NCBI GenBank assembly: GCA_947494325.1
Contig: CANLUS010000006.1
Coordinates: forward strand, 238,512-302,511
DNA from: an uncultured Flavobacteriaceae bacterium
GTDB lineage: Bacteria; Bacteroidota; Bacteroidia; Flavobacteriales; Flavobacteriaceae
DNA length: 64,000 nucleotides
Reading direction: 5' to 3'
Shown here: in pieces, positions 40,787-63,052 of the stretch
Position numbering within the stretch: the first letter of the stretch is position 1
How the letters are laid out: the number at the start of each line of letters is the position of its first letter
Notes under the pieces: model-generated
What the model saw: the letters and a program-made list of their open reading frames with translations, nothing else
What the model was told of the DNA's origin: nothing
The model's database searches: none
Made by a program: the position numbers and the translations under genes

Positions 40787-40800
40787 ATTTCCCAATACAA
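40787..40800. repeat. Putative attachment site, left end (14-bp direct repeat)
   Basis: ATTTCCCAATACAA is identical, in the same orientation, to the last codons of mnmE at 61663-61676. On the minus strand it reads TGT ATT GGG AAA then TGA, so the mnmE ending CIGK-stop would be kept if the two sites recombined. This is likely the original chromosomal 3' end of mnmE, displaced by the element. Confidence 0.75.
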
Positions 40801-41061
40801 TATCTATCTTTCCTTTATTAATAGGGGTTTTAGAAGTCTGAGGTGTAAATAAGGTACAAAAAAAGTAATTGTTGATAAATTTAACCTAATTACAACCAAA
40901 ATTAATGAAGGGTTAGAATTTAAGTAAAGATAGTTTATTATCATATTCTAAACCTTCGATTGCACCGCCTGTGGTTAATATTCGAATTTGATTTGGTATC
41001 AATTGAGTGATTTGGTAATGTTTAGTAATTGATTTATAATTTCATAGGGAAATCCATTTCT
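40801..41061. other. Left end of the element, non-coding
   Basis: No gene seen. It contains the arm-type motif at 40840-40850 and otherwise AT-rich DNA up to the stop of the serine hydrolase at 41062. The chromosomal side (40588-40786) is also gene-free. Confidence 0.5.
40840..40850 (+). repeat. Arm-type-like motif near left end (GAGGTGTAAAT)
   Basis: Identical 11-mer to 61532-61542 near the right end, same orientation. It is 40 bp inside the left 14-bp repeat. Likely integrase arm-binding site by analogy with other tyrosine integrases. Confidence 0.55.
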
Positions 41062-42588
41062 TTATTGATTGAGTTTTGTTAGCATGGCTTCAGCATTTCC
41101 GTTTTCAGGGTCTAATTCAAGTGATTTTTTATAATTTTTTATTGCTAATGCTTTTTCGCCCATAAGCATATATATTTCGCCTAAACTGTCATATGCGTTA
41201 GAAGATTTGGGATTGTCATCAGCATTGAGTTTAAGAACCAATAAAGCCTTTTTAAACGCTTTGTTATTAATTAGTTCATAACCTAGATTGTTCATCTGAT
41301 TTTCAAAAGCTTTTAATGGAATTGAATCATAGAAATCTTTAGCCTTATTGATATCATCAGTTAATAATAACTTCCTAAAAGTTTCAAAATCTGAATTACT
41401 AGCTAATCTATTTTCTGCATCTAAATCTCTTGAAAAATCATTTTTTAAAAATATATTCTCTGCATACTGAGTGATTAACTCCTTGTAGCTAGAAATTTGA
41501 TTAGTCATTATAAAAATTCCAAAACCTTCATCTAAGTGCAAAACACATCTAGAATTTTGACCGTCAATAGCGCCATTTGCTCCTAAAGTTATTTTATTGT
41601 CTTTTGAATACCCTCCAAAACCTATATTATAATACCAAAACTCATTACCATTTCTAAGGCTAATATTTGAGTGAGGTTTTAACATATAATTATACTCATT
41701 ATCAGTCATATAGCGTTCATTTTCATGCATACCGTTATTTACTAACATTTTAACCCATTTTGCTATGTCACTAGGTGTAGAACTAATAGCGCCAGAAGGT
41801 GCGACATGCGTTAGATTAACTACAACATCAGGTGTTACTCCATCTCCTTTATAGCCTGTGGCCTTATTAGAAACATTTACAAAATCAGAATAACCTGTAT
41901 AAGAATCATTCATATTTAAAGGGATGAAAATTCTCTCTTTTATAAGGGTTTCCCAAGGTTTTTCAGTAACTCTTTCGTGAGAGATACCAACTAAAGCATA
42001 CATAAAATTATTATAACCATAAGAGTTCCTAAAACTACCGACTAAATCAATATCTTTTATGACATTTAATATTTCTTCTCTTGGATAATCTTTATATTTC
42101 CATAAATCATCTCTCCTGCCAAGACCCGTTCTGTGTGCTAAAGCATCAGCTATTGTTGCATTTTCTTCGACATACTTATTTTTTAATTTAAACTCAGGTA
42201 TATAGGTTTTAATTGGTGTATCCCAATCTAACAAACCATCGGACACTAATTTAGAAGTTAAAAGCCCTGTAAAGGGTTTTGTATTAGAGCCAATACTAAA
42301 GAGTGTATTCTCTGTAATTTTCATTTTTTTTTGTACATCTCTAAAACCTAATCCGCCTTTATATAAAACATCATTATTGTAAATAATAGCAATACCTACA
42401 CCTGGTACATTAGTCTTATCTCTTATAGAATCTGCTATTTTTAAAAAATAGTCTAGTTTTTGATTTGGGGTTTTTACAGATTGAAAATTGTTTAAGTTTA
42501 TTGCACTTTGATTATCGGCCTGTTTACATGACAAAGCGAAAAATACCAGCAAAAGAGGTAGATGCTTTATTAGTTTATTTATTTTCAT
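41062..42588 (-). CDS. Serine hydrolase (beta-lactamase/PBP class C fold) lipoprotein with TPR tail
   Basis: A 508-residue lipoprotein (signal KHLPLLLVFFALSC, lipobox Cys 21). The beta-lactamase-fold domain (about 45-375) has the nucleophile motif SNTK (in SIGSNTKPFTG, near residue 98), the YxN-like YNN (in YGYNNFMYAL), and GANGAIDGQ in the place of the third motif. The C-terminal region (about 410-505) has TPR-like repeats, the last AYDSLGEIYMLMGEKALAIKNYKKSLELDP. Such proteins hydrolyse peptides or esters in the envelope. It follows the LytS gene with an inverted repeat between them. Confidence 0.87.
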   Translation of the reverse strand: MKINKLIKHLPLLLVFFALSCKQADNQSAINLNNFQSVKTPNQKLDYFLKIADSIRDKTNVPGVGIAIIYNNDVLYKGGLGFRDVQKKMKITENTLFSIGSNTKPFTGLLTSKLVSDGLLDWDTPIKTYIPEFKLKNKYVEENATIADALAHRTGLGRRDDLWKYKDYPREEILNVIKDIDLVGSFRNSYGYNNFMYALVGISHERVTEKPWETLIKERIFIPLNMNDSYTGYSDFVNVSNKATGYKGDGVTPDVVVNLTHVAPSGAISSTPSDIAKWVKMLVNNGMHENERYMTDNEYNYMLKPHSNISLRNGNEFWYYNIGFGGYSKDNKITLGANGAIDGQNSRCVLHLDEGFGIFIMTNQISSYKELITQYAENIFLKNDFSRDLDAENRLASNSDFETFRKLLLTDDINKAKDFYDSIPLKAFENQMNNLGYELINNKAFKKALLVLKLNADDNPKSSNAYDSLGEIYMLMGEKALAIKNYKKSLELDPENGNAEAMLTKLNQ

Positions 42589-42592
42589 AAAT

Positions 42593-42627
42593 TGAAGATT
42601 TGTAATAAATTAAATTATAAATCTTCA
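42593..42627. promoter_or_regulatory. Inverted repeat between LytS gene and serine hydrolase gene
   Basis: TGAAGATTT (42593-42601) and AAATCTTCA (42619-42627) form a perfect 9-bp inverted repeat with a 17-bp spacer, directly upstream of the hydrolase gene (start 42588). It may be an operator or an RNA hairpin in the leader. Confidence 0.45.
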
Positions 42628-42671
42628 GACCTAATAATAGACTTTACAACAAAGAAAAATAGTTAACGAAT

Positions 42672-45539
42672 TTATTTGAAGAAAGTGATATTAGGAAATG
42701 TAATAACAATCTGCGTTCCTGAGGAAGCTTCATCTGAAATAAGGTCTTTGACAACAAAACCAATAGTTTTATTATACTTTTTTTCTAAAATTTTCAAACG
42801 TTTTTTAATCGCTTCCATAGCATAAGAACTATGATGTTCTCCCTGTCTTTTTTGAATTTCTAAAGCTTTTTTTCTACCAATTCCATTGTCAGTAATTGTG
42901 CACTGTAATCCATCTGAATAAGGCGTAAACTCTATATTGAGATTTTTTTTACCCTTTTTGTGAAACAAGCCATGTACAATAGCGTTTTCTACAAATGGCT
43001 GTATCACCAATGATGGAATTTTTTTATCTACTAAACACTTGTTGATTATACTGTATTGAAAATCAGAACCAAATCTTAATTTTTCTAATTTTAAGTATGT
43101 GTTTAAAAAACTTATTTCTTCTTCTACACTTATGTATTGTCGATTAGAATAATTTAATGAATTACGGACTAAATCTGAAAATAAAACAATATAGTCGTAT
43201 GAGGCATTCGTGTCTTGTTTTAGAATAAGGTCTTGAATAGAGTTGAGAGAATTAAAGATAAAGTGAGGATTCATCTGTGACCTTAGAGCTCTTAATTCAG
43301 ATTCTATAGAGTCCATTTTTAAAGATTGTCTAAGAAGTTTTTCTGCGTTTGTTTTCTTAAGTCTCTTTGCTCTGTGTGCGGTATAATAGAATCCTATAAT
43401 TACTACAGCTGAAACAACAATTGCATAAAACCACCAAGTTTGCCAATAAGGTTTTCTGATACTGAAATTATAAGTTAACTCTGAGCTTTCTCTATCTCTA
43501 AATTTTACATTTATTAAAAAATTATAATCGCCCGGTGGCAAATAGTCATATTGTATTTTAGACTCTAGAACACTTTTAAATCGTCGTTTGTCATCAAAAC
43601 CAATTAATTGATAACTATATGAAGCTTCATTCTGGTAAGGTATTAAACTAAAGTCTGGGAATACGGACAATTTATTTTCTTTAGAATTGAAACTATAGTC
43701 AGTTATTTTTTCTAAGTATTTGTTTCCGATTTTAATAGAATCAATTTGCAACTCTAAATCAATAAGTTCCGTTTTAAAGTTGATGGGTATTGAGACTAAA
43801 GTATTGTTAGAAGCCAACCAAATAGCATCATCAGTAACCGTAAAATTGTTCACACTGCCATCTTCAATACCTTCTGCAAAACCAATAGCCTGCCAAGTTT
43901 TATTTTTAGTATTGTACATCTGAAAGCTGGATTTTGTAGAGATGTAAACTATTCCGTTTTTTTCATGTATTTTATTTACATAGTTATTTGCTAAGCCGTT
44001 GCTGACGTCAATAGTGTACAAGAATTCTCCTCCTTTAAATACAACTATACCTTGACTTTGTGTTGCGACCCACACTTCATCATTAAAAGTCAACAAATCA
44101 TTGCCTATTAATTCCTTGTTTTTCAACTTCAAAATTTCCTTAGTTCCTCCTTCCGTTACTTTAATTAGTGAGGATATTGTAGATATATAAATAGCCTTTT
44201 CAGCTGGTGTGTAAATAGCATCTAAACATCTTGTTTTTGTATCTTTTAAAAGATATATATTGTCTTTTATTGGTTTCCAAATAGTATCGGACAACAGTTC
44301 TTTATTTCCAAACTTGTATAACCCTTCTGATGTGCTCAACAACATCGTATGCTTATCAATTTTATCAATATTCTTTAGAGCACCATAAATACCAGAATTA
44401 TTATAAAAAAGAGTAGGGAATTTTCTATTAACATCTATGTGAAAATCTTCCACAGAGAATATTTTTTCAGGGATAAACTCTAAATCAACATTCAGTTTTT
44501 CTAACTGATTATGATGATAACTTAAGATTCCATTTATTCTATCAGAGATAAAAACAGTACCCTTTTTATTTGAGGCAATCGACTGAATATTATTCCCTAG
44601 ATTTTTGAATTTATATTGAAAAATATTTTTATTCGGTATCACAAATAATCCCTTTCCAAAAGTGCCCAAAAATAATTCTCCATTTACACCTTCAGCTATA
44701 TGAGAGATAAATGTGTTCTTGAAGTATATTTCTTTCACTTTTGGCATATCATTTTCGATAACCAATTTTTCAATACCGCTTGTATGATTTTTTCGCCAAA
44801 TAGTTTTATTGTTAAATTGAAAATAACTAGTAAGGGATGTTAGTTTTTTTTCTTCTTTAGTTTGTCTTATTTCATTAAGTCTATCTACATTAATCAATTT
44901 TTTACCTAGTATGTATATGAGTCTATTAAATTCTGAAGTATGTTCAAATTTGTATAGATTGGGTATTATTCTGCCTCTAGAGATTTGAAATAACGTGTCC
45001 TCTTGTTTTGTTGAAATGAATATTCTACCATCTGGTAGCTTAGAGAATTTAGTTATTTCATTTGGTCTATGGTATATGGGTTTTATACTGTCAAACTTTA
45101 TTATAAAGCATCCTTTAGAACCCACGATAAGGTTATCATCTTCATCAAACTCCATACTCATACTTGCTGATAGTGAATTTGCAGGAATTGTTTGATATAA
45201 TTCTAGCTTGTTTCTCTTTATTGTGAATATTTGACCATTAAGGTTATAGCAAAACACATCTCCTTTTTTATTCTCAATTAGGTTAAATAACGAAATCCCT
45301 AATTGTTTTTCATTTGATGAAACGAGTTTCATCTCGCCATGTTTATACTGATAAAGACCTTCGTTAGTTGCAACAAATAGGCGTAAATCTTTTGTTTGAA
45401 GAATTGAATAAATCTCAGCATTTTTCAGCTCTTCTTTGCCTAGAACGAAATAGTTTAAATCTTGCGCATAGCATTTGTGAACTGTTGTCGAAACAATAGC
45501 AAATAGTAATAGAAAAAATAGTTTGAGCTTATTGTGCAT
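42672..45539 (-). CDS. Hybrid-type sensor histidine kinase, LytS/YehU class with beta-propeller sensor
   Basis: A 955-residue sensor. Residues 1-25 are a signal peptide. About 30-600 form repeated short beta segments (for example GSKGCFIIKFD, EDGSVNNFTVTDDAIWLASNN) like the periplasmic two-component propellers of Bacteroidota. A Y_Y_Y-type domain (about 610-690, YSYQLIGFDD) precedes one membrane helix (about 700-720). The His_kinase domain has QMNPHFIFNSLNSIQDL (phospho-acceptor His about 757) and the ATPase N-box PFVENAIVHGL. It should sense an extracytoplasmic signal and phosphorylate the LytTR regulator encoded just upstream (15-bp gap). Confidence 0.9.
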   Translation of the reverse strand: MHNKLKLFFLLLFAIVSTTVHKCYAQDLNYFVLGKEELKNAEIYSILQTKDLRLFVATNEGLYQYKHGEMKLVSSNEKQLGISLFNLIENKKGDVFCYNLNGQIFTIKRNKLELYQTIPANSLSASMSMEFDEDDNLIVGSKGCFIIKFDSIKPIYHRPNEITKFSKLPDGRIFISTKQEDTLFQISRGRIIPNLYKFEHTSEFNRLIYILGKKLINVDRLNEIRQTKEEKKLTSLTSYFQFNNKTIWRKNHTSGIEKLVIENDMPKVKEIYFKNTFISHIAEGVNGELFLGTFGKGLFVIPNKNIFQYKFKNLGNNIQSIASNKKGTVFISDRINGILSYHHNQLEKLNVDLEFIPEKIFSVEDFHIDVNRKFPTLFYNNSGIYGALKNIDKIDKHTMLLSTSEGLYKFGNKELLSDTIWKPIKDNIYLLKDTKTRCLDAIYTPAEKAIYISTISSLIKVTEGGTKEILKLKNKELIGNDLLTFNDEVWVATQSQGIVVFKGGEFLYTIDVSNGLANNYVNKIHEKNGIVYISTKSSFQMYNTKNKTWQAIGFAEGIEDGSVNNFTVTDDAIWLASNNTLVSIPINFKTELIDLELQIDSIKIGNKYLEKITDYSFNSKENKLSVFPDFSLIPYQNEASYSYQLIGFDDKRRFKSVLESKIQYDYLPPGDYNFLINVKFRDRESSELTYNFSIRKPYWQTWWFYAIVVSAVVIIGFYYTAHRAKRLKKTNAEKLLRQSLKMDSIESELRALRSQMNPHFIFNSLNSIQDLILKQDTNASYDYIVLFSDLVRNSLNYSNRQYISVEEEISFLNTYLKLEKLRFGSDFQYSIINKCLVDKKIPSLVIQPFVENAIVHGLFHKKGKKNLNIEFTPYSDGLQCTITDNGIGRKKALEIQKRQGEHHSSYAMEAIKKRLKILEKKYNKTIGFVVKDLISDEASSGTQIVITFPNITFFK

Positions 45540-45554
45540 TGGTCTGATAATTTC

Positions 45555-46298
45555 TTAAATCATTTTATTATCAAACACTTCGTATTGTGACCTTGATATT
45601 CTGGCTTCTATTTTGCCTTTCAAAAAAAGTTTACTTTCCGAACGATTAATACTTTTCAGAAAATCTAAATTTACAATCCAACTACGGTGACTTCTAAAAA
45701 AATTAACTTCAGTTTCTAAGATGTCTTCGTAGTATTTAAGGTTTTTACTTGTGAATAAGACCTTATCATCCTTTAAGTGTATATTACTATACGCACCATC
45801 TGCTTCGATGGCTATTATTGACTCAATATTAACGATGCGTTTGTTACCCGATTCTGGTATAACCAGTTTTTTGAACTCCTTGGTTTTTACAGTTTCTAAA
45901 AGAATTTCGTAATGTGTTAGTTTGTCCTTGTTATTTAGCTTAGTATTTAGTTTTTGAACTGCATCCTTTAGCCGATTTCTATCAATAGGCTTGACCAAAT
46001 AGTCTACAGCGCAAAGCTCAAATGCTTTAATAGCATATTCATCATAAGCAGTTACAAAAATAATTTCAAAATTAATTTCCTTAAAAAAATTCACTATTTC
46101 GTAACCCGAATAATTGGGCATTTTTACATCTAAAAAAACAACTTGAGGTTTATGTCTTTTAATTTTAAATACAGCTTCTTGTATATCTGAGGCTTCATCA
46201 ATAACATCTATATTTAAGGCTTTATCTTTAAGTAAATTACCTATAACACTTCTTGCTCTAGCTTCATCATCTACTATAATTGCTTTAGTTTTATTCAT
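45555..46298 (-). CDS. LytTR response regulator
   Basis: A 247-residue regulator: receiver domain (about 1-120) with acidic pair DDEARARS at the start, phospho-acceptor Asp in VFLDVKMPNYSGYEI (D about 57), FVTAYDEYAIKAFE and VDYLVKPID (lysine about 106); then a LytTR DNA-binding domain (about 145-245, with FFRSHRSWIVNLDFLK). LytTR proteins bind direct repeats in promoters. It is the first gene of the pair with the LytS sensor. A -7 box ends 5 bp before its ATG, suggesting a leaderless transcript. Confidence 0.92.
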   Translation of the reverse strand: MNKTKAIIVDDEARARSVIGNLLKDKALNIDVIDEASDIQEAVFKIKRHKPQVVFLDVKMPNYSGYEIVNFFKEINFEIIFVTAYDEYAIKAFELCAVDYLVKPIDRNRLKDAVQKLNTKLNNKDKLTHYEILLETVKTKEFKKLVIPESGNKRIVNIESIIAIEADGAYSNIHLKDDKVLFTSKNLKYYEDILETEVNFFRSHRSWIVNLDFLKSINRSESKLFLKGKIEARISRSQYEVFDNKMI

Positions 46299-46303
46299 GT
46301 AAT

Positions 46304-46459: not shown

Positions 46460-47596
46460 ATGAAAACTTATTTGACATACACTTTTATTCTGTTTAGCGC
46501 GTGTTTATTTGCTCAGAATTCTAATTATTTAGACTTAGACAAAATTTTAGTTCAAAATGACAAACGTCCTCAAATACTTTTAGTAGGAAGTTTTCATTTT
46601 AACTACTCAGGTAGAGATACCCACAAAACCAAAACAGAAGATAGGATAGATATTATGAGCGAAAAGCGACAAAAAGAACTAGAAGAATTATTAGAATATA
46701 TAGCGAGATTTAAACCAACTAAAATTGCAGTAGAAGCAGGAAGAAATACAGGTTACCTGCATTGGAGGTTAAAAGACTCTAAAACTGGAGAAGATAAACT
46801 TAGAGCATCTGAAACTGACCAAATAGGTTTGAGACTAATGGATCGCTTTAAATTAGACACAATCTATGGAGTCAATGATTTTTCATATTTAACAAGAAGA
46901 AACTATAAGCGATCAAAAGATGAATTACCTCCACAAAACTATTTAGACAGTCTTTTTGTTGAACATCACTATGACGGCACTGACAAAATATCTAATCGCT
47001 ATAAAAGTTCCTTAAAGGCGCAAGACAAGTTTTTTGCACAAAATACTTTACTAGAATCTTTTTCTCATCTAAACAGTGATATAGCATTAAAAAGAAATTT
47101 TGGCTCTTATATATCTGGTGGTTATTTTATGTCAGAAGGACAATAAGGACCAGATTCATTTTCGTCAATTTTAATGAATAGAAATCTACGCATATACAAA
47201 AACATTTTAAACATAGACCATGATGAGAATGACCGCATCTTAGTTGTCATGGGGGCAACACATATAGCTGCTTTACACTGGTTTTTTCAATGCTCACCGA
47301 CTTTTGAGTTAGTAAAATTTAATGACCTAGCTTATATAAAAGGTAGTAAGTTTTCTAAAGGCAAAGCTAAAGTTAAAATAGCCTGTAAAATGTGTGGTAA
47401 GGATGGTGTATTAGTCATAAAAAACAAAGAATTAAACTTTGAAAAAATAGTCAATACTAATAAGAATTTTAAGTTAGATTTTCTATTAGATAAAGGCGTA
47501 TATCAATATTTCTACAATGACCAAAGCAATAATGCCATAATGGGCACTTTTAAAGCTAATCCAGAACAACGAAAAACGATTCGTTTGTTTAAATAA
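46460..47596 (+). pseudogene. DUF5694/TIKI-like exported protein, interrupted by in-frame TAA
   Basis: One reading frame, broken by TAA at 47144-47146; the rest continues in the same frame (GPDSFSS then MNRNLRIYKNIL from 47174). The intact paralogue at 49086-49970 has glutamate where the stop lies (DKFEGPD against SEGQ-stop-GPD), so a GAA to TAA change is the simplest cause. The product has a signal peptide (YTFILFSACLFAQ), the motif GSFHF near residue 34, IAVEAG near 91, and GATHIA in the second part. About 75 extra C-terminal residues contain a CKMCGKDG segment, absent from the paralogue. Readthrough or a sequencing error are alternatives. Confidence 0.85.
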
Positions 47597-47845: not shown

Positions 47846-49075
47846 ATGAAAAATCAATTAACAATAATAATCTTACTTATAAGTCTTGTCGCTTTGGGTC
47901 AAAATGGATTAACTAAAGAAAATTTAAACCCCTTTACGTATTCTTTTCAAATAGAAAAGGGTAAAATAACTGGAGAAGGCGCAACGTTTTTGTTACAAGA
48001 AATGTTTAAATCGCAATTTACAATGCTTGGAGAATATCATGGTTCTAAAAGAATTTCAGAATTCACTGAAGCTATTATACCAGAAATAGATAAGTATGGT
48101 TATAAAACTTTTGCATTGGAGATTGGTCCAATTTCAGCAAACATTTTGGATTCGACATCCGAAGATATTGTTAAATATTTAAACAAACTAAATCAAAAAT
48201 ATTTACTCAAAGATGATGATTATATAGATGTCCCTATCCCCTTTTTTGATTATGTAGAAGATGCTAAATTTTTAAAACAGGCAAAAAATTTAAAATGGAA
48301 TTTAATTGGTATAGACCAAGAATATTACGATTCATTTATCATGTTATCTGACAAGATGTATAAAAACTTGTCCAAAAAAAATCAGAAAAAATCAGAAAAA
48401 GTATACATATCTGCAATAGACTCTCTTAACTCATACTACAAAGGTAATACTGCCTTTTCTATAGCTGTTAAAAAATCTAAAACTATTGATAATTTCTTAG
48501 AAGAAATGTCAGTCAATGATAATAATACGGTGATAGTAAAAGCTTTCAAAAAAAGTATAGAGATTTATTATTTAAACGACACAAGAAAGTACTATGGTAA
48601 TAATGCAAATAGGATTAAATACATGAAAGAGAACCTTAGAAGAGAGCTTAAAAATAAAAATTTTGATATTTCTAAAGATAAATTATTAATAAAAATGGGA
48701 CAAAATCATTTAGCTAAAGGATTTAGTCCGCTTGCCCTATATGAGGTTGGTAATACCCTAAGTGAAATTGCTGCATACAATGGTAATCAAAGTTTTAACA
48801 TTGCATTTATGTCAAGATTTTCAACAGATAAAGGTAAAATAATAGATTTAATGAATTCGGATAATAATTATTACAAAAGGTCTAATGACTTGAGACAAAT
48901 GGGCAAAAAAGATGAATGGGTGGTTATAGATTTAAGAAAACTAATTAAAGGGCATTTTTACAGACCTAATAAGTACAGATTCAACGAAACTATAGAAAAT
49001 CTTGTAAAGCGTTATGATGTTGTTGTAATACCAAAAACGGAAGTAGAAGGAACACTTAATTACTCACTTAATTAA
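47846..49075 (+). CDS. Exported TIKI/EreA-like protein
   Basis: A 409-residue exported protein (signal MKNQLTIIILLISLVALGQ). Landmarks: FTMLGEYHGS (about residues 59-68), the glutamate in FALEIGP (about 98), and LIKMGQNHLAKG (about 283-293). A GxxH, Glu, GxxH pattern is the signature of the TIKI/TraB/ChaN/EreA superfamily of putative metal-dependent hydrolases; I use it as inference, since the overall sequence is not familiar. It lies between the two DUF5694 copies, which show the same pattern. Substrate unknown. Confidence 0.65.
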   Translation: MKNQLTIIILLISLVALGQNGLTKENLNPFTYSFQIEKGKITGEGATFLLQEMFKSQFTMLGEYHGSKRISEFTEAIIPEIDKYGYKTFALEIGPISANILDSTSEDIVKYLNKLNQKYLLKDDDYIDVPIPFFDYVEDAKFLKQAKNLKWNLIGIDQEYYDSFIMLSDKMYKNLSKKNQKKSEKVYISAIDSLNSYYKGNTAFSIAVKKSKTIDNFLEEMSVNDNNTVIVKAFKKSIEIYYLNDTRKYYGNNANRIKYMKENLRRELKNKNFDISKDKLLIKMGQNHLAKGFSPLALYEVGNTLSEIAAYNGNQSFNIAFMSRFSTDKGKIIDLMNSDNNYYKRSNDLRQMGKKDEWVVIDLRKLIKGHFYRPNKYRFNETIENLVKRYDVVVIPKTEVEGTLNYSLN

Positions 49076-55097: not shown

Positions 55098-56009
55098 TTA
55101 GTTCATTTTAAGTATTCCCTCTAGTACAGCATCAATAACTTTAGACATTTTTTGAATATCAATCGTTTCAATAGTGTCAGATTTCCGATGGTAATTTTTG
55201 TTACGATTAGGTCCTGTATCAGTTAACATAGATGCACTATAACCAAAATTCCAATAATTTAAATGGTCGGACCAATCCAGTCCTTCTATGGATTTTGGCC
55301 CAGATAAGGATTTTACTTTTATTTTGTTTTGACTTTTCAGTTTTCTTTTTAATCTCCTTGCAAATTTTCCTTTTCCCCACTTATTAACAATCATTATGTA
55401 ATTACCTTTTGTACCATACACCCAGGACATAATACCAATGGGGAATTTTTGTGATTTTTTTGTCTTATCAAAATAGCCTATCATATCAAAAGATAACATC
55501 CCATAGACATCTCTTTTAGTGTCAAAAAGAAATTTTGCGTGTTTATAACTTCCCATATTTTCTGTTCTAAAAAACGGTGGTTCTTCTAAGGTATACCCAA
55601 CAAGTTCAATACGATAATTTAATAGTTTTCCTTTCAGTAATCTGGCTAATTCTAGAAGACCTATTACACCGCTTGCATTATCGTCCGCGCCATCTTGGTC
55701 TCCACAGACATCATAGTGCGCTCCAATAACTATAGTTTTCTTTTTATGCTTTCCAAAAACTGAAATGACATTCTTATATTCATTGCCATCGACTTTATAT
55801 TTTTGATAGTATGTGGTATCTGCATATTGTTCTAATTGCTGTTTTATATACAAAGCAATTGTGTCTAATGTTTGGAAATTTCGATAATTTCTATACTTTT
55901 CGGTATTTACAATTTTATCAAAATGTTTCTTTATTAATGTAGTATCCGATTGTGAAAAACTATTTAAACAGACCATCAGTAAACAGATGAGTATTGGTTT
56001 TTTTTTCAT
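55098..56009 (-). CDS. Exported M28 family zinc peptidase
   Basis: A 303-residue exported protein (signal MKKKPILICLLMVCLNSFS). Zinc ligands and catalytic residues of M28 aminopeptidases are all visible: GAHYDVCG (His, about 96), DGADDNASG (bridging Asp, about 108), LEEPPFF (Glu pair, about 146), SFDMIGY (Asp, about 173), and WSDHLNYW (His, about 252). Such enzymes remove N-terminal amino acids, or act as glutaminyl cyclases. It overlaps the upstream DUF6624 gene by 4 bp, so the two are translationally coupled. Confidence 0.9.
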   Translation of the reverse strand: MKKKPILICLLMVCLNSFSQSDTTLIKKHFDKIVNTEKYRNYRNFQTLDTIALYIKQQLEQYADTTYYQKYKVDGNEYKNVISVFGKHKKKTIVIGAHYDVCGDQDGADDNASGVIGLLELARLLKGKLLNYRIELVGYTLEEPPFFRTENMGSYKHAKFLFDTKRDVYGMLSFDMIGYFDKTKKSQKFPIGIMSWVYGTKGNYIMIVNKWGKGKFARRLKRKLKSQNKIKVKSLSGPKSIEGLDWSDHLNYWNFGYSASMLTDTGPNRNKNYHRKSDTIETIDIQKMSKVIDAVLEGILKMN

Positions 56010-56989
56010 TTTGATGATGTTTCTTTAATTACTTTTTTTAGATAACTCCAATTTCTAGGGCTAACATCTTTTATGTAATTAAAATCAATATCAGACAGAA
56101 ATTCTTGGCCATCTCGGTGTCCATTAATAATGGCCTTTATTAGATAAAAAGAAGCCCATTTACTTTCTTTATGTTTTGCTAATGAGCAAGCGCGTGCAGT
56201 TTCAATATAGTCTTCGATTTTTATTGAACCGTTTGATTTTAAGGCTTCTAGATAATAGGTAACTGCATCATCATAATTTTTTGAAACCATTGCTTGTTTC
56301 GCTTTTTTTACATTATTATTATATGCTTTTTCAAAAGCATTACTGCGTTGAATAGCCTCTTCTTTAGTGGGGACTTTATACTTAAATCCGTATTGTTGTG
56401 CATAGGTTTCAACATGAAGGTCAAAGCCCATAACTGCTCTTCTATTTTGTATATTGGTTTCGTCTTCAATAGGTTGAAAAGCTCCTTTAGCAATACCGTT
56501 ATTGGTAGTACTTTGAGTGGCATATAATTGCTTATCTCCTTTAAATACGGCCACTCTGTCGTACAAAAATGCGTAATTCACAGGGTCCGCTTCTCCTTTG
56601 TTTGTAGCCTCTTTTAAAAGTGGTAAACACTTTATTTGGAAGAGTGGGTCTCTATCAGAATGTTGTGCAATGAGCCAAGCACCCACACTCGCTTTTTTTC
56701 CTACTAAGCTGTATGTAGGCCAACCATACTTGCTGATTATTACCTTCAGTCTTTCGGTATTAGCGCTATCGGCAGAAATAAGTTTATTGGTTAGCGTTTT
56801 GAATTTTTGATTCTCTGTTTTTCCAGAACTAGCCATTTTAGCCCATTTCTTTCTCAGTTTTTTGTCAGCAGCCCTAATTCCAATAAGTTCTTTAGATAAT
56901 TTAGGATTTTCAATACTTTGTGATAAGATATCACAATTGTATATAAATATGACTAATAGGACTAATGCGAATTTCATAGTTATTTTCAT
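56006..56989 (-). CDS. DUF6624 family exported protein with repeat tail
   Basis: A 327-residue exported protein (signal about 1-22). Residues about 30-180 match DUF6624: YGWPTYSLVGKKASVGAWLIAQHSDRDP followed by CLPLLKEA and YAFLYDRV, whose histidine-aspartate pattern is typical. The C-terminal part (about 200-320) has TPR-like helical pairs. Function of DUF6624 is unknown. Second gene of an apparent three-gene operon (ankyrin, DUF6624, M28 peptidase). Confidence 0.78.
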   Translation of the reverse strand: MKITMKFALVLLVIFIYNCDILSQSIENPKLSKELIGIRAADKKLRKKWAKMASSGKTENQKFKTLTNKLISADSANTERLKVIISKYGWPTYSLVGKKASVGAWLIAQHSDRDPLFQIKCLPLLKEATNKGEADPVNYAFLYDRVAVFKGDKQLYATQSTTNNGIAKGAFQPIEDETNIQNRRAVMGFDLHVETYAQQYGFKYKVPTKEEAIQRSNAFEKAYNNNVKKAKQAMVSKNYDDAVTYYLEALKSNGSIKIEDYIETARACSLAKHKESKWASFYLIKAIINGHRDGQEFLSDIDFNYIKDVSPRNWSYLKKVIKETSSK

Positions 56990-57008
56990 AAGTATAGTGT
57001 TTGTATTT

Positions 57009-57542
57009 TTATTGTTTTGCTCCTTTGCTAACTAAATAGGTTATTACGGCTTTATGCTTCCCTTTTTTAGCCATACGTAATGCGTTTCTTTTTTCAGTAC
57101 CTAGTCTATAGCCTTCTCTAACGGTTTTGTTGATGTCAGCTCCATGTTCAACCAAATATTTAACTACATCTAAATGACCATTCCATGCTGCTCTGATTAG
57201 GGGTGTTTCGTCACCTTCTACATGTATGTTAACATCAGCATTTTTTGAGATTAAATACTTTACTATGTCAAGATATCCGAGTTTAGAAGCCTCTATTAAT
57301 GGACTGCCATCCAACTTTACACCTTCGTTTGCATCTGCTCCTTTTTCGACAAGGATTTTTACAGCTTTTAGATTACCTGTTTTTACAGCACTTATTAAAG
57401 GTGTGCCATTTCCTCGAAGAATTATAGTATTTTGATTGTCCGAAGAGATTAGTTGTATAGGTAAGTCATTATTACTTTCTTCTTGGCTAAATACACTTGT
57501 TAGGCTAAGGCAAGTTATTAGAGTAAATACAATTGTTTTCAT
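57009..57542 (-). CDS. Exported ankyrin-repeat protein
   Basis: A 177-residue protein with a signal peptide (MKTIVFTLITCLSLTSVFS) and about four ankyrin repeats: NGTPLISAVKTGNLKAVKILVEKGAD, DGSPLIEASKLGYLDIVKYLISKNAD, DETPLIRAAWNGHLDVVKYLVEHGAD, then a degenerate one with RNALRMAKKGKHKAVITYLVSKGA. It mediates protein binding in the periplasm; the partner is unknown, perhaps the M28 or DUF6624 product encoded downstream. A -7 box lies 37 bp upstream. Confidence 0.87.
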   Translation of the reverse strand: MKTIVFTLITCLSLTSVFSQEESNNDLPIQLISSDNQNTIILRGNGTPLISAVKTGNLKAVKILVEKGADANEGVKLDGSPLIEASKLGYLDIVKYLISKNADVNIHVEGDETPLIRAAWNGHLDVVKYLVEHGADINKTVREGYRLGTEKRNALRMAKKGKHKAVITYLVSKGAKQ

Positions 57543-57578
57543 TCTTTAAATACTTTTAGATTATTATTTATTTGATAG

Positions 57579-57746: not shown

Positions 57747-57754
57747 TACCTTTG
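57747..57754 (+). promoter_or_regulatory. -7 box (TACCTTTG) immediately before the second LytS start
   Basis: TACCTTTG ends 6 bp before the ATG at 57761, the same box and spacing as at 46304-46311 before the other LytTR gene. A leaderless or near-leaderless mRNA is inferred. Confidence 0.5.
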
Positions 57755-57760
57755 TTTTTT

Positions 57761-58825
57761 ATGATTGAAAAAACAAGTTATATCGATAGAATAATACAGA
57801 ATAGAGTAGTGTCACACTTTATTTTCTGGATTATGTTCTTCATTATTTTTTCCATTCTTGCTGTATTAAATTCTGGTAATCTAAAAGAATCAATACTTAG
57901 TTATCTAGCTTTTTTACCCTCCCAGTTAATGGCAGGTTATTTTTTAGTCTATTATCAAGTCCCTAAACTTTTATTAAAGAAGAAGTATGCTTTATTTGGC
58001 ATTTCTTTTCTTTTGTCTGTTTATATTTTTTCAATTGTTGCTAGACTTAGCAGCATCTACTTTGCCGAACCTTTTTTTAGAGAAGATTTTTATCAAGAAA
58101 GCTTGCTCGAGGTTATGAAAGACCCTCTTTATTTAGCTATTGTCTACTTTCCTACGGTGTATGTTGTGGTGTTTTTAATGCTTATAATCAAAGTAGTAAA
58201 AGACCGCTTTGAAGAAAAACATCAGTTTGAGATATTACAGAAAGAAAAAGCCAACACGGAATTAAAATTTCTTAAAGCTCAAACTAATCCACATTTCTTA
58301 TTCAATACACTAAACAACCTATATTCACTTACATTAGCTAAATCTGACAAAGCTCCAGAAGTGGTTTTGAAATTATCAGATATGTTAGACTATATGTTAT
58401 ACCAGTGTAATGAACCTACGGTATCTATCATTAAGGAAATTGAATTAATACAGAATTATTTAGATATAGAATCTTTGAGATATAATAAGACATTAAATGT
58501 TAATTTTAAGCATTCTTGTAATAATATTGATGCTAAAATAGCCCCATTAGTTTTATTACCTTTTATTGAAAATGCTTTTAAGCATAGTGCAAAAGGAACA
58601 AAGGCAACACCAATAATAGAAATAGAGCTAAATATGACAAATAATAAACTTCGATTTAAAGTTCGAAATTCAAAACCTACTACTGTCAATATTTCTAGAA
58701 GTAAAGGTATTGGTATGGAAAATATAAAAAGACAATTAGAATTGCACTATAAAAACAACCATGATTTGGTTATAGACGATGGGCACGATTATTTTGACGT
58801 TGAGTTAAATATAGTTTTAAAATAA
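57761..58825 (+). CDS. Sensor histidine kinase, LytS/YehU class
   Basis: A 354-residue membrane kinase; start at ATG 57761 (a TTG at 57752 is in frame but within the likely promoter). About four membrane segments (residues 17-150) are followed by a His_kinase domain with KAQTNPHFLFNTLNNLYSL (phospho-acceptor His about 177) and ATPase motif PFIENAFKHSAKG. Unlike the other kinase in the element it has no periplasmic propeller, so it should sense through its membrane domain. Its stop overlaps the response regulator start (TAATG). Confidence 0.9.
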   Translation: MIEKTSYIDRIIQNRVVSHFIFWIMFFIIFSILAVLNSGNLKESILSYLAFLPSQLMAGYFLVYYQVPKLLLKKKYALFGISFLLSVYIFSIVARLSSIYFAEPFFREDFYQESLLEVMKDPLYLAIVYFPTVYVVVFLMLIIKVVKDRFEEKHQFEILQKEKANTELKFLKAQTNPHFLFNTLNNLYSLTLAKSDKAPEVVLKLSDMLDYMLYQCNEPTVSIIKEIELIQNYLDIESLRYNKTLNVNFKHSCNNIDAKIAPLVLLPFIENAFKHSAKGTKATPIIEIELNMTNNKLRFKVRNSKPTTVNISRSKGIGMENIKRQLELHYKNNHDLVIDDGHDYFDVELNIVLK

Positions 58826-59517
58826 TGAGTATAAACTGCATAATTATAGATGACGAACCTTTGGCTATCAAAGTCATAGAGCAGTATATTTCTAATGTAT
58901 CTATCTTAAATCTTAAAGGCACATTTGAAAATCCAATGGAAGCTCAAGAGTTATTAAATTCAAATGACATTGATTTGATTTTTTTAGACATACAAATGCC
59001 TCTAATAACAGGAATCGATTTTCTAAAAACTATAAAAATTAATTCAAAAGTTATCTTTACTACAGCTCATAGAAATTATGCTATTGAAAGTTATGAATTA
59101 GATGCTGTAGACTATCTTTTAAAGCCAATTTCATTTCCACGCTTTCTTAAAGCGATTAACAAATATGAAGAGATTAGTTTGGATAAAAACTACAAGTTAG
59201 AATCTCGTTCTGATGATAATTTCATCTATGTGAATTCAAATAAAAAAAATATAAAAATAGATTTTGATTCAGTACTTTACATTGACAGCATCAAGGATTA
59301 TATTAGAATTCATACTTCTGAAAAAACAATAGTTACTAAAGAAAAAATTAGTTCTTTTATAGATAAGTTATCAGAGGATTTTATAAGGGTTCATAGGTCG
59401 TACATTGTAAATAAAAATAAGGTAACTGCTTATACTGCTAAAGATATCGAAATTGAAGACATTGAAATTCCAATTGGAAATTACTATAAAGATGAGATAA
59501 GAAAGTTAGGAAAGTAA
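58825..59517 (+). CDS. LytTR response regulator
   Basis: A 230-residue regulator with receiver domain (IIIDDEPLAIKVIE, phospho-Asp in IFLDIQMPLITG, about 54, FTTAHRNYAIESYELDAVDYLLKPI) and a LytTR DNA-binding domain (about 125-228, with FIRVHRSYIVNKNKV). Translationally coupled to the kinase gene. It is the second LytTR system in the element; the two regulators share general layout but are clearly different proteins. Target sites are unknown. Confidence 0.92.
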   Translation: MSINCIIIDDEPLAIKVIEQYISNVSILNLKGTFENPMEAQELLNSNDIDLIFLDIQMPLITGIDFLKTIKINSKVIFTTAHRNYAIESYELDAVDYLLKPISFPRFLKAINKYEEISLDKNYKLESRSDDNFIYVNSNKKNIKIDFDSVLYIDSIKDYIRIHTSEKTIVTKEKISSFIDKLSEDFIRVHRSYIVNKNKVTAYTAKDIEIEDIEIPIGNYYKDEIRKLGK

Positions 59518-59728
59518 TCTTTGCTTATTTACTTAAAAAATTAAGAACACTATCTAGTACATCATCTGCTTCTTTATGTATAAAATTAACTTGGACATTA
59601 GTATGAAATTAGTAATTTCCTAAAAAGAAAGAGACTACAATTGTATATTCAATATGAAATATTAGTTCAAGTTTTTGGTTTTCAGTATTCCAAAACTCAA
59701 AACTCTACTCTCAGTAAGAAAGCTTAAA

Positions 59729-60013
59729 CTAGCTATTCTTTAGGACGTAATTCAACGCATCATTTTTAATCTCAAAGTTTGATTTACGATTATTCTGAAG
59801 TAACCATTCGTTTAGACGATTAATGTCAAAAAAAATCAATTTACCATTTGGTTTGCTGTGAGGAACGATTCCAGCAGAGGTCAATTTATATAAATAGCTT
59901 CTTGATATACCAGTATAACTGCAAGCCTCTTCCAAAGTAAGCACCTGTTTTGTACTTAACAACAAGCTCTCAATTCTATCTAGCTTTTCTTGAATTTCTA
60001 TTATATCTATCAT
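59729..60013 (-). CDS. Small MerR/excisionase-type helix-turn-helix protein
   Basis: A 94-residue protein with an N-terminal leucine-rich coil (IQEKLDRIESLLL) and an HTH_17-type domain (residues about 23-75: VLTLEEACSYTGISRSYLYKLTSAGIVPHSKP then LIFFDINRLNEWLLQ). Proteins of this kind encoded next to tyrosine integrases act as excisionases or repressors in Bacteroidota mobile elements. It lies 321 bp downstream of the integrase gene, on the same strand. Confidence 0.82.
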   Translation of the reverse strand: MIDIIEIQEKLDRIESLLLSTKQVLTLEEACSYTGISRSYLYKLTSAGIVPHSKPNGKLIFFDINRLNEWLLQNNRKSNFEIKNDALNYVLKNS

Positions 60014-60334: not shown

Positions 60335-61489
60335 TTATAAAACATCTAATTCGAGAGTTGGAACCAAATTTGCTGCTTCTTTCATTTTCTTGTCGATAAT
60401 CTTAGCATAAATTTCTGTAGTTCTAATATCTTTATGACCAAGACGCTTTGAATCTGTGTAAATATCAGCACCGTTTTCAAGTAAAAGTACCGCGTTCGTA
60501 TGGCGAGCAGAGTGAAATGTTATGTGTTTACTAATACCTGCGTACAAACACCAGCGTAGCAATTGAAGGTTCATATGAGCGCTGTATCTAAGATTAGTAA
60601 AAACTCTGTCTGTCGGCTCTAAACGTTCCCCTAGCAATTCTCTGGCTTGCTGAGAAATATAAAGGTATTCCATTCCTTCAGTCTTTTTCTGTTTAAAAAC
60701 GATACGGAAGATTTCATTACCAGAATTATCAATTCCTTCGTCTCGAACCTCTGACCAGATTAGTTTATGCGTATCAGACCACCTAATACCAGTCAAAGCG
60801 GAGAACAAAAACGCTCTTTTTAGAACTTCGTATTTGCACTTTGTTTTGGAAAGCTTTTTTAGTTCATCTGAAGTCAAATATTCTCTTTTAGATTCGCCCA
60901 TAGCAAATCCCTTTATCCTAATTATGAGGTTTTCTTTTAAGTAGCCTTCTTCAAATGCAGCTCTCATAGCCGCTTTGAATTTGTTAAAGTAGGTATGCTT
61001 AGTATTTTGAGACAAGTTTGTTTTACTTTTAGTAACAGCAATTGTATAAAGATATTTTTTAAATCCTTTTATAAAATCAATATCTACATCATTAAAAGTA
61101 ATGTGAGGCGAGCAATAATTCTCTAAGTGCTTTTGTGCGGCATCCCAGTTATCATAATTACCCTTATTCTGATAACGTTCTTCCTTTTTTGCCTCATAAA
61201 AATCCAATACTGTTGTTTTTCCAATATGATTATTTTGCATTTTATATTTTCCCTGATATATCTCGGCTTTTCGAATAGCAAAGATTTGTTCGGCAAGTTC
61301 CAACTGTTCTTTGTTCTTTTTCTTTTCCGAAGCTGTTTTTGGGTCGGTAATAAGATAGAGTTCTAAATATTCGAAATCTCTAATATGCTTAATTTTTCCT
61401 TCAGAGGTAGATTTGTGACCTTTATAGTATTCAATGTAAAGACTTGTTTTACCACTTTTTAATTTCTTCTTTCTAAGATGGATTTTCAT
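60335..61489 (-). CDS. Tyrosine recombinase (site-specific integrase)
   Basis: A 384-residue integrase. An N-terminal arm-binding domain (about 1-60, MKIHLRKKKLKSGKTSLYIEYYKG, the usual Bacteroidota start), a SAM-like core-binding domain (about 90-190), and a C-terminal catalytic domain with R236 (TGIRWSD), H326 and R329 (HSARH), H352 (LGH) and nucleophile Y361 (TTEIYAKI). All catalytic residues are present, so it looks active. It lies 171 bp from the mnmE stop with three 20-bp-spaced repeats next to its start, as expected for the integrase at the end of an element. Confidence 0.93.
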   Translation of the reverse strand: MKIHLRKKKLKSGKTSLYIEYYKGHKSTSEGKIKHIRDFEYLELYLITDPKTASEKKKNKEQLELAEQIFAIRKAEIYQGKYKMQNNHIGKTTVLDFYEAKKEERYQNKGNYDNWDAAQKHLENYCSPHITFNDVDIDFIKGFKKYLYTIAVTKSKTNLSQNTKHTYFNKFKAAMRAAFEEGYLKENLIIRIKGFAMGESKREYLTSDELKKLSKTKCKYEVLKRAFLFSALTGIRWSDTHKLIWSEVRDEGIDNSGNEIFRIVFKQKKTEGMEYLYISQQARELLGERLEPTDRVFTNLRYSAHMNLQLLRWCLYAGISKHITFHSARHTNAVLLLENGADIYTDSKRLGHKDIRTTEIYAKIIDKKMKEAANLVPTLELDVL

Positions 61490-61490
61490 A

Positions 61491-61540
61491 CGAGGTGTAA
61501 TTTTTACATCTCGGGTGTAAAAAACAATTTCGAGGTGTAA
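61491..61540 (+). repeat. Three 10-bp direct repeats at 20-bp spacing, likely arm-type sites
   Basis: CGAGGTGTAA (61491-61500), TCGGGTGTAA (61511-61520) and CGAGGTGTAA (61531-61540) are spaced exactly 20 bp apart, two helical turns. Between the first two lies TACATCTC, an inverted copy of the motif. They lie between the integrase start and mnmE. Likely binding sites of the integrase N-terminal domain, possibly also autoregulatory. Confidence 0.65.
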
Positions 61541-61660
61541 ATTAGATGTAATAAATGTATAAAAATCGGATAACCAAGAGAAAGTAAAAATTCAAGAGTT
61601 ATTAACATTCATTTGATTTACAATCAATTACAGTCAATTGAAATCAAAAAATATGAGTAA

Positions 61661-63052
61661 CTATTTCCCAATACAAAAATTAGCGAAGATATTTCCAAGG
61701 AGATCATCATTAGTGATTTCACCGGTAATCTCGCCAAAATGGTAAAGAGCTTGTCGTATATCAATAGACATAAGATCTCCAGATAAACCAGTATCTAAGC
61801 CATATTTAACTTTGGTAATTTCTTGCAATGCTTTTAAAAGTGCATCATAGTGACGAGAATTTGTCACAATAGTATCATTATTATGTAGAGCGCCAGTGTT
61901 GACAAAGGTGAGTAATTTATCTTTTAACTCTTCTATTCCAAAGCTTTCCTTGGCTGATATTAAAAGTAAATTATCTGGAGTAAAAGAAGTTGAAATGTAA
62001 TTTTTATCTGAGGCATCAATCTTATTGGCTATAATAAGTAAAGGCTTGTTCGGGAACCTATTTTTTATTTTATTGATTTCTACATGAATTTTTTTGACGT
62101 TTAATTCATCTGTAATAGTCGTCGCATCAATTAAATACATGATCACTTGAGCTTGTTCAGATTTTTCAAAGGTCTTCTTTATACCAATACTTTCAACAAC
62201 GTCTACAGTATCACGGATACCTGCGGTATCTATGAATCGAAAACCAATGCCTCCAATGGTCATTTCGTCCTCAATGGTGTCACGAGTCGTTCCAGCAATA
62301 TCACTTACAATGGCCCGATCTTCGTTCAACAAAGCGTTCAATAATGTGGATTTACCAACATTCGGTTCACCAATAATAGCAACTGGAATTCCATTCTTAA
62401 TTACATTTCCGACTGCAAAAGAATCGATAAGTCGTTTAAGCACAAATATAATTCTTGCTGTTAATTCTTTGAATTGAGTTCTATCGGCAAATTCTACATC
62501 CTCCTCAGAAAAATCAAGTTCTAATTCTATAAGTGACGCAAAATTCATTAATTCTTGGCGTAACTTAGAAATTTCTGATGAGAAACCACCGCGCATTTGT
62601 TGCATGGCTATTTGATGTGACGCTTTAGAATCACTTGCAATAAGATCTGCTACTGCTTCGGCCTGACTTAAATCTAATTTTCCGTTTAAAAAGGCTCGTA
62701 GCGTGAATTCTCCAGCGTTCGCCATTCTACAACCATTTTTTAAGAATAGTTGGATTATTTCTTGCTGAATAAAGGTAGAACCATGGCAAGAAATTTCAAC
62801 AACATCCTCTCCTGTATACGAATGAGGGTTTTTAAAAACAGAAACCAATACTTCATCTAATACTCTATCATTCTCGATAATATGACCAAGAAGAATAGAA
62901 TGTGATCGTTGCTTATTTAACTCTTTACCGTGAACAGATGTAAAGAACTGACTACAAGTAGAAATAGCATGTTCTCCCGATAATCTAATTATAGCAATTG
63001 CACCAGCGCCTGGCGCTGTGGCTAATGCTACAATGGTGTCATTATATATCAT
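61661..63052 (-). CDS. mnmE: tRNA modification GTPase MnmE
   Basis: MnmE with MnmG adds the carboxymethylaminomethyl group to wobble uridine of certain tRNAs. The 463-residue protein has the N-terminal folate-binding domain (IYNDTIVALATAPG), the GTPase motifs GEPNVGKST (about 222-230), DIAGTTRDT, DTAG and NKID, and the obligatory C-terminal FCIGK. Start is taken at ATG 63052; the longer frame begins at TTG 63073. The last codons overlap the 14-bp repeat of the integrated element and the reading frame is intact. Confidence 0.96.
   Translation of the reverse strand: MIYNDTIVALATAPGAGAIAIIRLSGEHAISTCSQFFTSVHGKELNKQRSHSILLGHIIENDRVLDEVLVSVFKNPHSYTGEDVVEISCHGSTFIQQEIIQLFLKNGCRMANAGEFTLRAFLNGKLDLSQAEAVADLIASDSKASHQIAMQQMRGGFSSEISKLRQELMNFASLIELELDFSEEDVEFADRTQFKELTARIIFVLKRLIDSFAVGNVIKNGIPVAIIGEPNVGKSTLLNALLNEDRAIVSDIAGTTRDTIEDEMTIGGIGFRFIDTAGIRDTVDVVESIGIKKTFEKSEQAQVIMYLIDATTITDELNVKKIHVEINKIKNRFPNKPLLIIANKIDASDKNYISTSFTPDNLLLISAKESFGIEELKDKLLTFVNTGALHNNDTIVTNSRHYDALLKALQEITKVKYGLDTGLSGDLMSIDIRQALYHFGEITGEITNDDLLGNIFANFCIGK
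61663..61676. repeat. Putative attachment site, right end (14-bp direct repeat in mnmE 3' end)
   Basis: ATTTCCCAATACAA covers the mnmE codons Cys-Ile-Gly-Lys and the first base of the TAG stop, and is repeated at 40787-40800. The mnmE (trmE/thdF) 3' end is a known target of integrative islands such as SGI1. Confidence 0.75.

Follow-up and report, generated by a model that had tools for sequence, protein, structure and literature searches.

SGI1 is an element known to use the 3' end of trmE/thdF (mnmE), as the sequence-only reading of our locus had noted. Its target is the last 18 bp of thdF, and it combines a tyrosine integrase with an excisionase; it also has direct repeats, forms tandem arrays and uses a secondary site (PMC8409611, PMC2297512). 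Integrative and mobilizable elements of Bacteroidetes, of the NBU1 and Tn4555 kind, are reviewed in PMC5704250, which names trmE twice (SGI1, MGIVchHai6) and mnmE nowhere; the passages of PMC11104534 consulted hold nothing on mnmE. Targeting of mnmE is already known from SGI1, and in the literature searched we found neither a Bacteroidota family with this target nor an exchange of arm cassettes in print.

The window analyzed here is a stretch of 64,000 nucleotides from an uncultured Flavobacteriaceae bacterium. It holds a 20.9-kb integrative element that adjoins mnmE at the 3' end of the gene and is likely driven by its own integrase (probability about 0.88). The element and its family resemble SGI1, as far as covered above, in the mnmE 3'-end target, a tyrosine integrase with an excisionase (here predicted), direct repeats, tandem arrangement and a secondary site. 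They differ in belonging to another phylum; by Pfam matches of its 18 ORFs, the window element shares with the SGI1 family the insertion point but none of its backbone (mps, tra, sga), mobilization or regulator genes, and other relatives use a MobA/VirD2-like relaxase and a NikA-like protein. A tyrosine integrase, and such a relaxase in 12 of 20 mapped relatives, are likenesses to the NBU1/Tn4555 kind as reviewed there, whereas the window element itself has no relaxase or primase. Non-autonomous or cis-mobilizable genomic islands carry integration functions only. The window element is like them, with an integrase, a predicted excisionase, ends and no transfer genes, and a kin element lies beyond a relaxase-bearing one in genome G341.

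Ends and recombination genes of the element

The element spans 40787-61676, and the exact end of mnmE is its insertion point. The features of the two ends are as follows.

39746..40531, minus strand: wza-like gene for polysaccharide export, which comes next in the host (Pfam; follows mnmE directly in the sister species)
40787..40800, no strand: far-end copy of the attachment site (sequence), with the crossover probably within CCAATAC (40792-40798)
40840..40859, no strand: predicted far-end arm sites (sequence), GAGGTGTAA at 40840-40848 and the weaker AAGGTACAA at 40851-40859
59729..60013, minus strand: HTH_17 protein, predicted excisionase (recombination directionality factor; Pfam, NCBIfam, PDB profile match)
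60335..61489, minus strand: tyrosine integrase, intact, 384 aa (Pfam, catalytic residues)
61492..61551, no strand: integrase-side cluster of predicted arm sites (sequence; same layout in relatives; travels with the arm-binding domain), GAGGTGTAA at 61492-61500, TTACATCTC at 61504-61512, GAGGTGTAA at 61532-61540 and the degenerate AGATGTAA at 61544-61551
61663..61676, no strand: mnmE-side copy of the attachment site (sequence), with the crossover probably within CCAATAC (61668-61674), placed from relatives G157, L111 and G343
61661..63073, minus strand: mnmE, host gene targeted for integration at its last codons, FCIGK and stop (ORF; C-terminus NIFANFCIGK)

The sequence-only reading had proposed a complete element bounded by a 14-bp perfect direct repeat, a match judged unlikely to arise by chance. 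The repeat, ATTTCCCAATACAA, was located at 40787-40800 and 61663-61676, and the window has no other exact match to it. Across the whole genome of the host (3.64 Mb, 43 contigs) there are exactly two occurrences of the 13-bp core TTTCCCAATACAA, at the two element ends and not at the many unrelated places that would have told against the proposal. On the right, the repeat forms the end of mnmE and reads FCIGK then TAG, and the left copy has identical CIGK codons followed by TGA, so that both copies run into a stop after AAA as described. Part of the 14-bp identity may reflect constraint on the FCIGK codons. In relatives, a shorter core within TGYATHGG is common to both copies; a longer exact repeat was rejected as the att site of the family, since the GGN and AAR codons and the stop are often not the same in their two copies. 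An RNA or tRNA integration target was looked for and none was found. The base composition of the element showed no difference from the flanks, and foreignness on this ground was dropped.

The intact integrase, the small HTH protein and the motifs at both inner ends were likewise recovered. The integrase has three Pfam domains (Arm-DNA-bind_5, SAM_5 and Phage_integrase), and its residues R236, K268, H326, R329, H352 and Y361 fit the catalytic pattern. An intact integrase by one end and direct repeats at the end of a conserved gene mark an integrative element of the tyrosine-integrase kind. The HTH_17 protein scores 35.7 bits against NCBIfam TIGR01764 'excise' (cut-off 28.8), with RdfS as its best PDB match (profile E 0.018). 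The GAGGTGTAA-type motifs are most likely arm sites of the integrase.

From these features a mechanism can be proposed. The integrase likely inserts the element by recombination between an element site and the final codons of mnmE, with the crossover probably within TGTATTGG, which encodes CIG of the FCIGK tail. Since the crossover would fall within these bases, the end of the gene together with a new stop codon would come from the element, and MnmE would be rebuilt as an unchanged protein. The N-terminal domain of the integrase probably binds the repeats near both ends, and the HTH_17 protein is predicted to tip the reaction towards excision.

Related elements behind mnmE

Relatives carrying a related integrase at this site, for which the sequence-only reading had proposed a search, are numerous. 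A related integrase lies behind mnmE in 29 of 29 loci from one search and in 75 of 80 named loci from another. The five exceptions are L148, where an FCIGK tail stands at the contig cut, L173, where the cut is too close to tell, L106 and L184, which lie behind an FCIGK-coding copy, and L109, which lies at the end of an HsdM-like ORF and has its integrase site outside mnmE. As judged from these loci, the window element is a member of an mnmE-end family found across Flavobacteriaceae, in dozens of related bacteria. Both ends were mapped for twenty elements (8.8-27.7 kb), all of which have the integrase and HTH_17; for 13 of 24 extended integrase-bearing loci, no far end was accepted in the DNA examined. 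HTH_17 was found in 50 of 66 loci with at least 9 kb downstream, and not found in the other 16.

The sister species G003 presents the empty site: mnmE is followed directly by wza and both flanks align, which is the junction expected from an element-free relative. In another sister, G004, mnmE and wza are separated by 26.6 kb of other genes without a related integrase, so this slot is also filled in another way.

Evidence for transfer comes from other family members, as no near-identical copy of the window element was seen in another genome. The element of G157 and the copy at L111 share 99.5% identity over the 11.5 kb seen, although the mnmE genes of their hosts are only about 69% alike. Past the end of mnmE, each of ten bins is identical at 25 of 25 positions, whereas over the final 200 bp of mnmE the figure is 14-21 of 25. 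By this comparison the pair shows transfer and sets the element boundary at the mnmE stop, in line with the insertion first proposed. Between hosts, similarity is higher for the integrase than for mnmE, with 87% against 70% at the protein level for L105. The site is a widespread docking place common to mobile DNA in Flavobacteriaceae, and the attachment sites are mapped well enough to seek cargo in other genomes. Hydrogenase genes, Argonaute with metal efflux, and toxin-antitoxin genes are carried by family members elsewhere; with such varied cargo, the mnmE site can move whole functions between hosts.

Cargo, transfer genes and alternative readings

Sixteen of the 18 element ORFs are cargo, arranged as follows.

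41062..42588, minus strand: Beta-lactamase-family serine hydrolase with TPR repeats (Pfam)
42672..46298, minus strand: LytTR response regulator (45555-46298) and 955-aa histidine kinase with regulator-propeller repeats (42672-45539; Pfam)
46460..47596, plus strand: DUF5694 sequence split over two ORFs (46460-47146, 47174-47596), likely a broken copy (Pfam profile 14-112 and 134-183 of 185)
47846..49075, plus strand: 409-aa protein without Pfam, PADLOC or NCBIfam match
49086..49970, plus strand: DUF5694 protein (Pfam)
49983..51092, plus strand: serine hydrolase of the Beta-lactamase Pfam family (Pfam, NCBIfam)
51270..51839, plus strand: 189-aa protein without Pfam, PADLOC or NCBIfam match
51965..53347, plus strand: pyridoxal-dependent decarboxylase family protein (Pfam)
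53423..54997, minus strand: amidohydrolase (Pfam)
55098..56009, minus strand: M28 peptidase (Pfam)
56006..56989, minus strand: DUF6624 protein (Pfam)
57009..57542, minus strand: ankyrin-repeat protein (Pfam)
57752..59517, plus strand: histidine kinase (57752-58825) and LytTR response regulator (58825-59517; Pfam)

The cargo ORFs probably serve the host. Two-component regulators are encoded, and the remainder are mostly hydrolases; in many of the products a leader peptide can be made out by eye. The serine hydrolase at 49983-51092 reaches 58.7 bits against the class C equivalog cut-off of 415. A defence island was considered and rejected: PADLOC, run on ten window proteins (8 of the 18 element ORFs lay outside the scan), gave no match for eight and matched only the ankyrin protein (PDC-M72A, E 1.7e-19, and Ankyrin) and the HTH protein (mad1, weakly, E 6e-5).

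No relaxase, NikA-like or primase gene was matched by Pfam among the window ORFs, and the element thus shows no recognizable relaxase of its own or other mobilization gene, such as an integrative and mobilizable element would have. The PF03432 relaxase and PF02534 coupling protein were absent from its genome, with controls positive in 1 and 5 of 14 genomes; for PF01076 and PF18976, the control genomes gave no signal. In the 12 mapped relatives with a relaxase, its gene is located after HTH_17. The original remark that a cargo without transfer genes is unusual holds for the window element and its nearest kin, but not for the family as a whole. Conjugation would mobilize more than half of the mapped members, which also have primase-like, NikA-like and relaxase genes. 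The window element and its nearest relatives show the integrase and the HTH protein but no relaxase, so that a helper would be required for spread to other cells; one candidate is a family member with a relaxase that shares the mnmE site in a stack. G341 has a window-like element on the far side of a family integrase that is accompanied by a relaxase gene.

Alternatively, the element could be what remains of a former integrative and mobilizable element: having lost its primase, NikA-like and relaxase genes, it would persist as a fixed island that keeps only a working-looking integrase. The relaxase of so many relatives, the lack of both PF03432 and PF02534 in the genome and one broken-looking cargo gene all fit such a history. 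However, the closest integrases (G337, the second copies of G338 and G341, G339 and G340) also have no primase/NikA-like/relaxase module in the DNA examined, so any loss is old, and an intact integrase, HTH gene and arm sites would be unexpected in a long-dead island. We regard decay as plausible but lean against it.

Much less probable is a phage satellite or prophage remnant, packaged by phage rather than moved by conjugation. An integrase with a small HTH protein is also the layout of phage satellites, and distant kin of the integrase occur in 189 phage records, each below 60% identity; but the relatives carry relaxase and NikA-like genes, and the 18 ORFs show no phage structural, terminase or packaging domain by Pfam (two without any match). 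It is hardly credible that the repeat pair arose by chance in ordinary chromosome with a resident integrase gene. The flank-like base composition would agree with this, but the rarity of the core, the empty site in G003 and the same anatomy in 19 further elements argue against it.

Predicted arm sites and their types

Several sequence types of these predicted arm sites exist in the family. The type of the integrase-side sites, together with the segment encoding the arm-binding domain, changes 10 times on the catalytic tree and once on the arm-domain tree. By these trees, sites and domain have been exchanged repeatedly as a unit between integrases of the same target. Such exchange makes it possible to test how tyrosine integrases acquire a new arm specificity without giving up their target.

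The exchange is not a fully matched change at both ends, as far-end sites are often unlike the integrase-side type. The comparison covers 14 mapped elements whose integrases are at least 70% alike. In seven of them the integrase-side sites are of the TTACACCTC type, with a like far-end site in six (not G283). Six have the TGTGTCTC type, with a matching far end in two (G157 and G343; not G346, L113, L131 and L132), and G250 has a third type. In six pairs of unlike type, identity recovers downstream in all to some degree, and upstream in three (G113/L113, L120/L124 and G250/G346); a sharp 240-bp segment in every pair was rejected on this count.

It is conceivable, at rather less than even odds, that a single target in the mnmE tail and interchangeable arm cassettes of about 240 bp, of at least two types (TTACACCTC, mostly F39; TGTGTCTC, Y39) and exchanged between integrases, form an incompatibility system, by which two elements could occupy a single mnmE end in a stack without cross-excision. 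The cassettes would then be a natural domain-swap set for reading the DNA code of arm-binding domains. Residue 39 and arm type agree in 35 of 36 cases, and the F39/Y39 code is broken only by L114.

The mnmE slot and the ends of the element

The repeat that the sequence-only reading had placed at both ends of the element is present there, and a search of the whole 3.64-Mb genome for its 13-bp core gives exactly these two places, not the many unrelated ones that were named as an argument against integration. On the right it forms the 3' end of mnmE, which reads NIFANFCIGK before the TAG stop, and the left copy carries the CIGK codons followed by TGA. The integrase claimed just inside the mnmE end consists of 384 aa with arm-binding, SAM-like and catalytic domains, and R236, K268, H326, R329, H352 and Y361, which we take to be the catalytic pattern of tyrosine integrases, are all in place. 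With a minimum length near 70 aa, a simple ORF caller found 18 ORFs within the element. The main features are as follows.

39746..40531, minus strand: wza-like polysaccharide export gene, next host gene beyond the far end
40787..40800: left copy of the 14-bp repeat
40787..61676: the element
59729..60013, minus strand: HTH_17 protein, predicted excisionase
60335..61489, minus strand: integrase
61661..63073, minus strand: mnmE
61663..61676: right copy of the 14-bp repeat

Comparison with a relative lacking the element gave the proposed arrangement. In a species of the same genus (G003) the element is absent and the wza-like gene directly follows mnmE, with the mnmE side aligning to the window at 81% and the wza side at 69% (3.1 kb). 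When the window flanks are joined without the element, the alignment runs through the mnmE end; conservation just past mnmE is only moderate, so that the junction is positioned by mnmE and wza, not base by base. The slot varies: in G004, a further species of this genus, mnmE and wza are separated by 26.6 kb of other genes, and there is no related integrase. G004 (L079-L081) also encodes a LytTR regulator with 59% and a kinase with 43% identity to the corresponding proteins of the window. Among 29 mnmE loci from relatives (L004-L032), an integrase match lies within the 1.5-kb flank in seven and is absent in 22.

Far ends were sought with the FCIGK-stop codon pattern and accepted for 20 elements, including the window's, with sizes ranging from 8.8 to 27.7 kb. 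No far end was accepted in 13 of 24 extended integrase loci, including G171 over 80 kb, and the mapped sizes are therefore biased to short elements. Candidates in G070 and G152 were left out, and the mapped set includes near-copies (G157/G343, L160/L161). The element-side far end resembles TRTAAAATAAGG..GTTAC in most of the 20. Over the 11.5 kb available for comparison, the elements of G157 and L111 are 99.5% identical. Counted in bins of 25 bp, the agreement is 25/25 in all ten bins past the mnmE end and 14-21/25 in the final 200 bp of the gene. G157 and G343 have a common 19-kb element with 87% identity, which agrees through GTTACTTTTTG at the far end and diverges beyond it. From these two comparisons we infer a crossover within TGYATHGG, by which the element would provide the last mnmE bases and the stop codon. 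They also show movement between hosts that have just 67-69% identity in their mnmE DNA and are thus probably of different genera. NiFe hydrogenase and Hyp families were found in a pooled scan containing the G157 ORFs and attributed to G157 via length and order; G343 has those ORFs too. This element, whose NiFe hydrogenase genes are likely, is seen in L069-L070, L200-L201 and L111, with 87 to 99.5% nucleotide identity between hosts.

A family of integrases at mnmE

The proposed search for this integrase in other Flavobacteriaceae placed it behind mnmE almost throughout. Integrase matches (E <= 1e-40) occur in 62 of 299 sampled family genomes, the window's own genome counted, and in all of the best 29 loci fetched besides the window's the mnmE end lies at most 0.9 kb upstream. 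A scan of named genomes found a relative encoded by 110 of 308 candidate stretches; among the best 80 loci kept, 75 have the integrase behind the mnmE end, with a gap of 144-227 bp in 69 and 634-955 bp in six. A small extra gene lies between mnmE and integrase in G060, G213 and G283, that of G213 with an HTH_17 match. The hosts span many Flavobacteriaceae genera and one Dysgonomonas (L157).

For the five exceptions, the FCIGK tail is visible at the contig cut in L148, the contig is cut too near the integrase in L173, and in L106 and L184 the integrase follows an FCIGK-coding copy with no detectable mnmE gene. The integrase of L109 lies at the end of an ORF that is presumably HsdM-like. The genomes of L106 and L109 each have a further integrase of this kind, at a distance of 17 and 41 kb and with the same orientation; L106 and L109 are the second copies, which fits a stacking of elements. 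In L109, around 9832, the integrase is window-like, the element starts at the end of the HsdM-like ORF, and GGGAAATAG is common with the mnmE end; this is a natural secondary site. Integrases just 33-36% identical to the window's (L019, L020 and L191 of G338) likewise lie behind mnmE and may represent a further lineage using the site. In G021 the C-terminus of mnmE is found a second time about 42 kb from the gene, as a stretch of 55 residues (C3:189759-189923; 60% identity, one internal stop) for which no related integrase was found; it is possibly from another mnmE-targeting element type.

The parallel with SGI1 drawn from the sequence holds, both elements being inserted in the last bases of mnmE: SGI1 uses the last 18 bp of thdF (mnmE; PMC2297512; see also PMC8409611), and it also stacks and has a secondary site. 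A review of integrative and mobilizable elements (IMEs) names 'trmE' twice, for SGI1 and MGIVchHai6 (PMC5704250). No Bacteroidota counterpart targeting mnmE was found in the literature searched, and the window's element is a member of a seemingly undescribed family within a known kind.

Putative arm sites and the arm-binding domain

A 9-bp motif, the putative arm site, is repeated in the mnmE-integrase gap, mostly two to five times and in a layout similar across elements, and the far end has one or two more copies. The copies of one element tend to change type together; many elements have TTACACCTC, others TGTGTCTC, and some a GTATCTC-like form. Types were compared in 36 distinct integrases with 70% or more identity to that of the window; 16 of the 36 have the TGTGTCTC type. 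When the tree is built from the SAM-like and catalytic domains (columns 96-388), arm type changes 10 times, at least six of them forced by well-supported branches; this is hardly below shuffles (mean 12; 75/500 as low for this group), and a single clade of the arm type is rejected (AU p 5.9e-6). A tree built from columns 1-90 needs a single change (support 97/93; 0/500 shuffles as low). Identity falls around the integrase start in pairs of unlike type, as in G113/L113 (41-70% across -60 to +179, then 86-98% across the next 780 bp), and there is no such fall in the like-type pairs G337/G340 and L113/G171. The integrase-side putative arm sites and the arm-binding domain thus travel together.

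Since the sites adjoin the domain, linkage alone may account for this. Position 39 is Y in 16/16 TGTGTCTC rows and F in 19/20 others (sign test over independent pairs, median p 0.03). Far-end sites match the integrase-side type in six of seven TTACACCTC elements but in just two of six TGTGTCTC elements, which disfavours a fully matched two-ended system.

Gene content and mobility

Integrase and HTH_17 genes are present in 20/20 mapped elements. The window's HTH_17 protein (94 aa) scores 35.7 bits against NCBIfam 'excise' (cut-off 28.8), and among PDB entries it comes closest to RdfS, a recombination directionality factor, in a weak match (E 0.17 alone, 0.018 as profile); that no mapped element lacks it argues more strongly for a predicted excisionase.

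Other genes in the 20 mapped elements (cluster names each taken from one representative)
CHC2/Toprim primase-like gene: 13
MobA/VirD2-like relaxase: 12
DUF6730: 12
NikA-like: 11
DUF5906/VapE-like: 9, and a further cluster in 3
HigB: 6
HTH_3 partner: 6

HTH_17 was found in 50 and relaxase in 27 of the 66 named loci that extend 9 kb or more downstream. DUF5712 and TraG-type are among the matches listed for the pooled ORFs of G113 and G215, undivided by member. The mnmE element of G213 (L098-L099) carries an Argonaute (PADLOC pAgo, E 3e-287) and metal-efflux families.

The cargo was described from the sequence as free of transfer genes, and none of the family's were found in the window's element, yet most mapped relatives carry the relaxase. 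The element differs from IMEs in having no mobilization genes. Compared with loci L065-L184 at E 1e-6, nine of its 16 cargo ORFs are without a match, and the remaining seven have at most 59% identity among the matches listed. For the nearest integrases (G337, G339, G340 and the second copies of G338 and G341), HTH_17 is likewise the only other family gene seen in the fetched DNA. PF03432 is absent from genomes G337, G338, G340, G113, G213 and G215; G339 has two matches elsewhere in its genome, and of the two in G341 one (at 1355744) lies between the integrase copies. The window's own genome has neither PF03432 nor PF02534 (controls positive in 1 and 5 of 14 genomes). For the window's element, a reasonable route would be to move in cis with a neighbour that carries a relaxase. 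Within the element, two adjoining ORFs at 46460-47596 match the first and the last part of the DUF5694 profile and are likely a single gene that has been broken; an intact DUF5694 gene lies next to them at 49086-49970.
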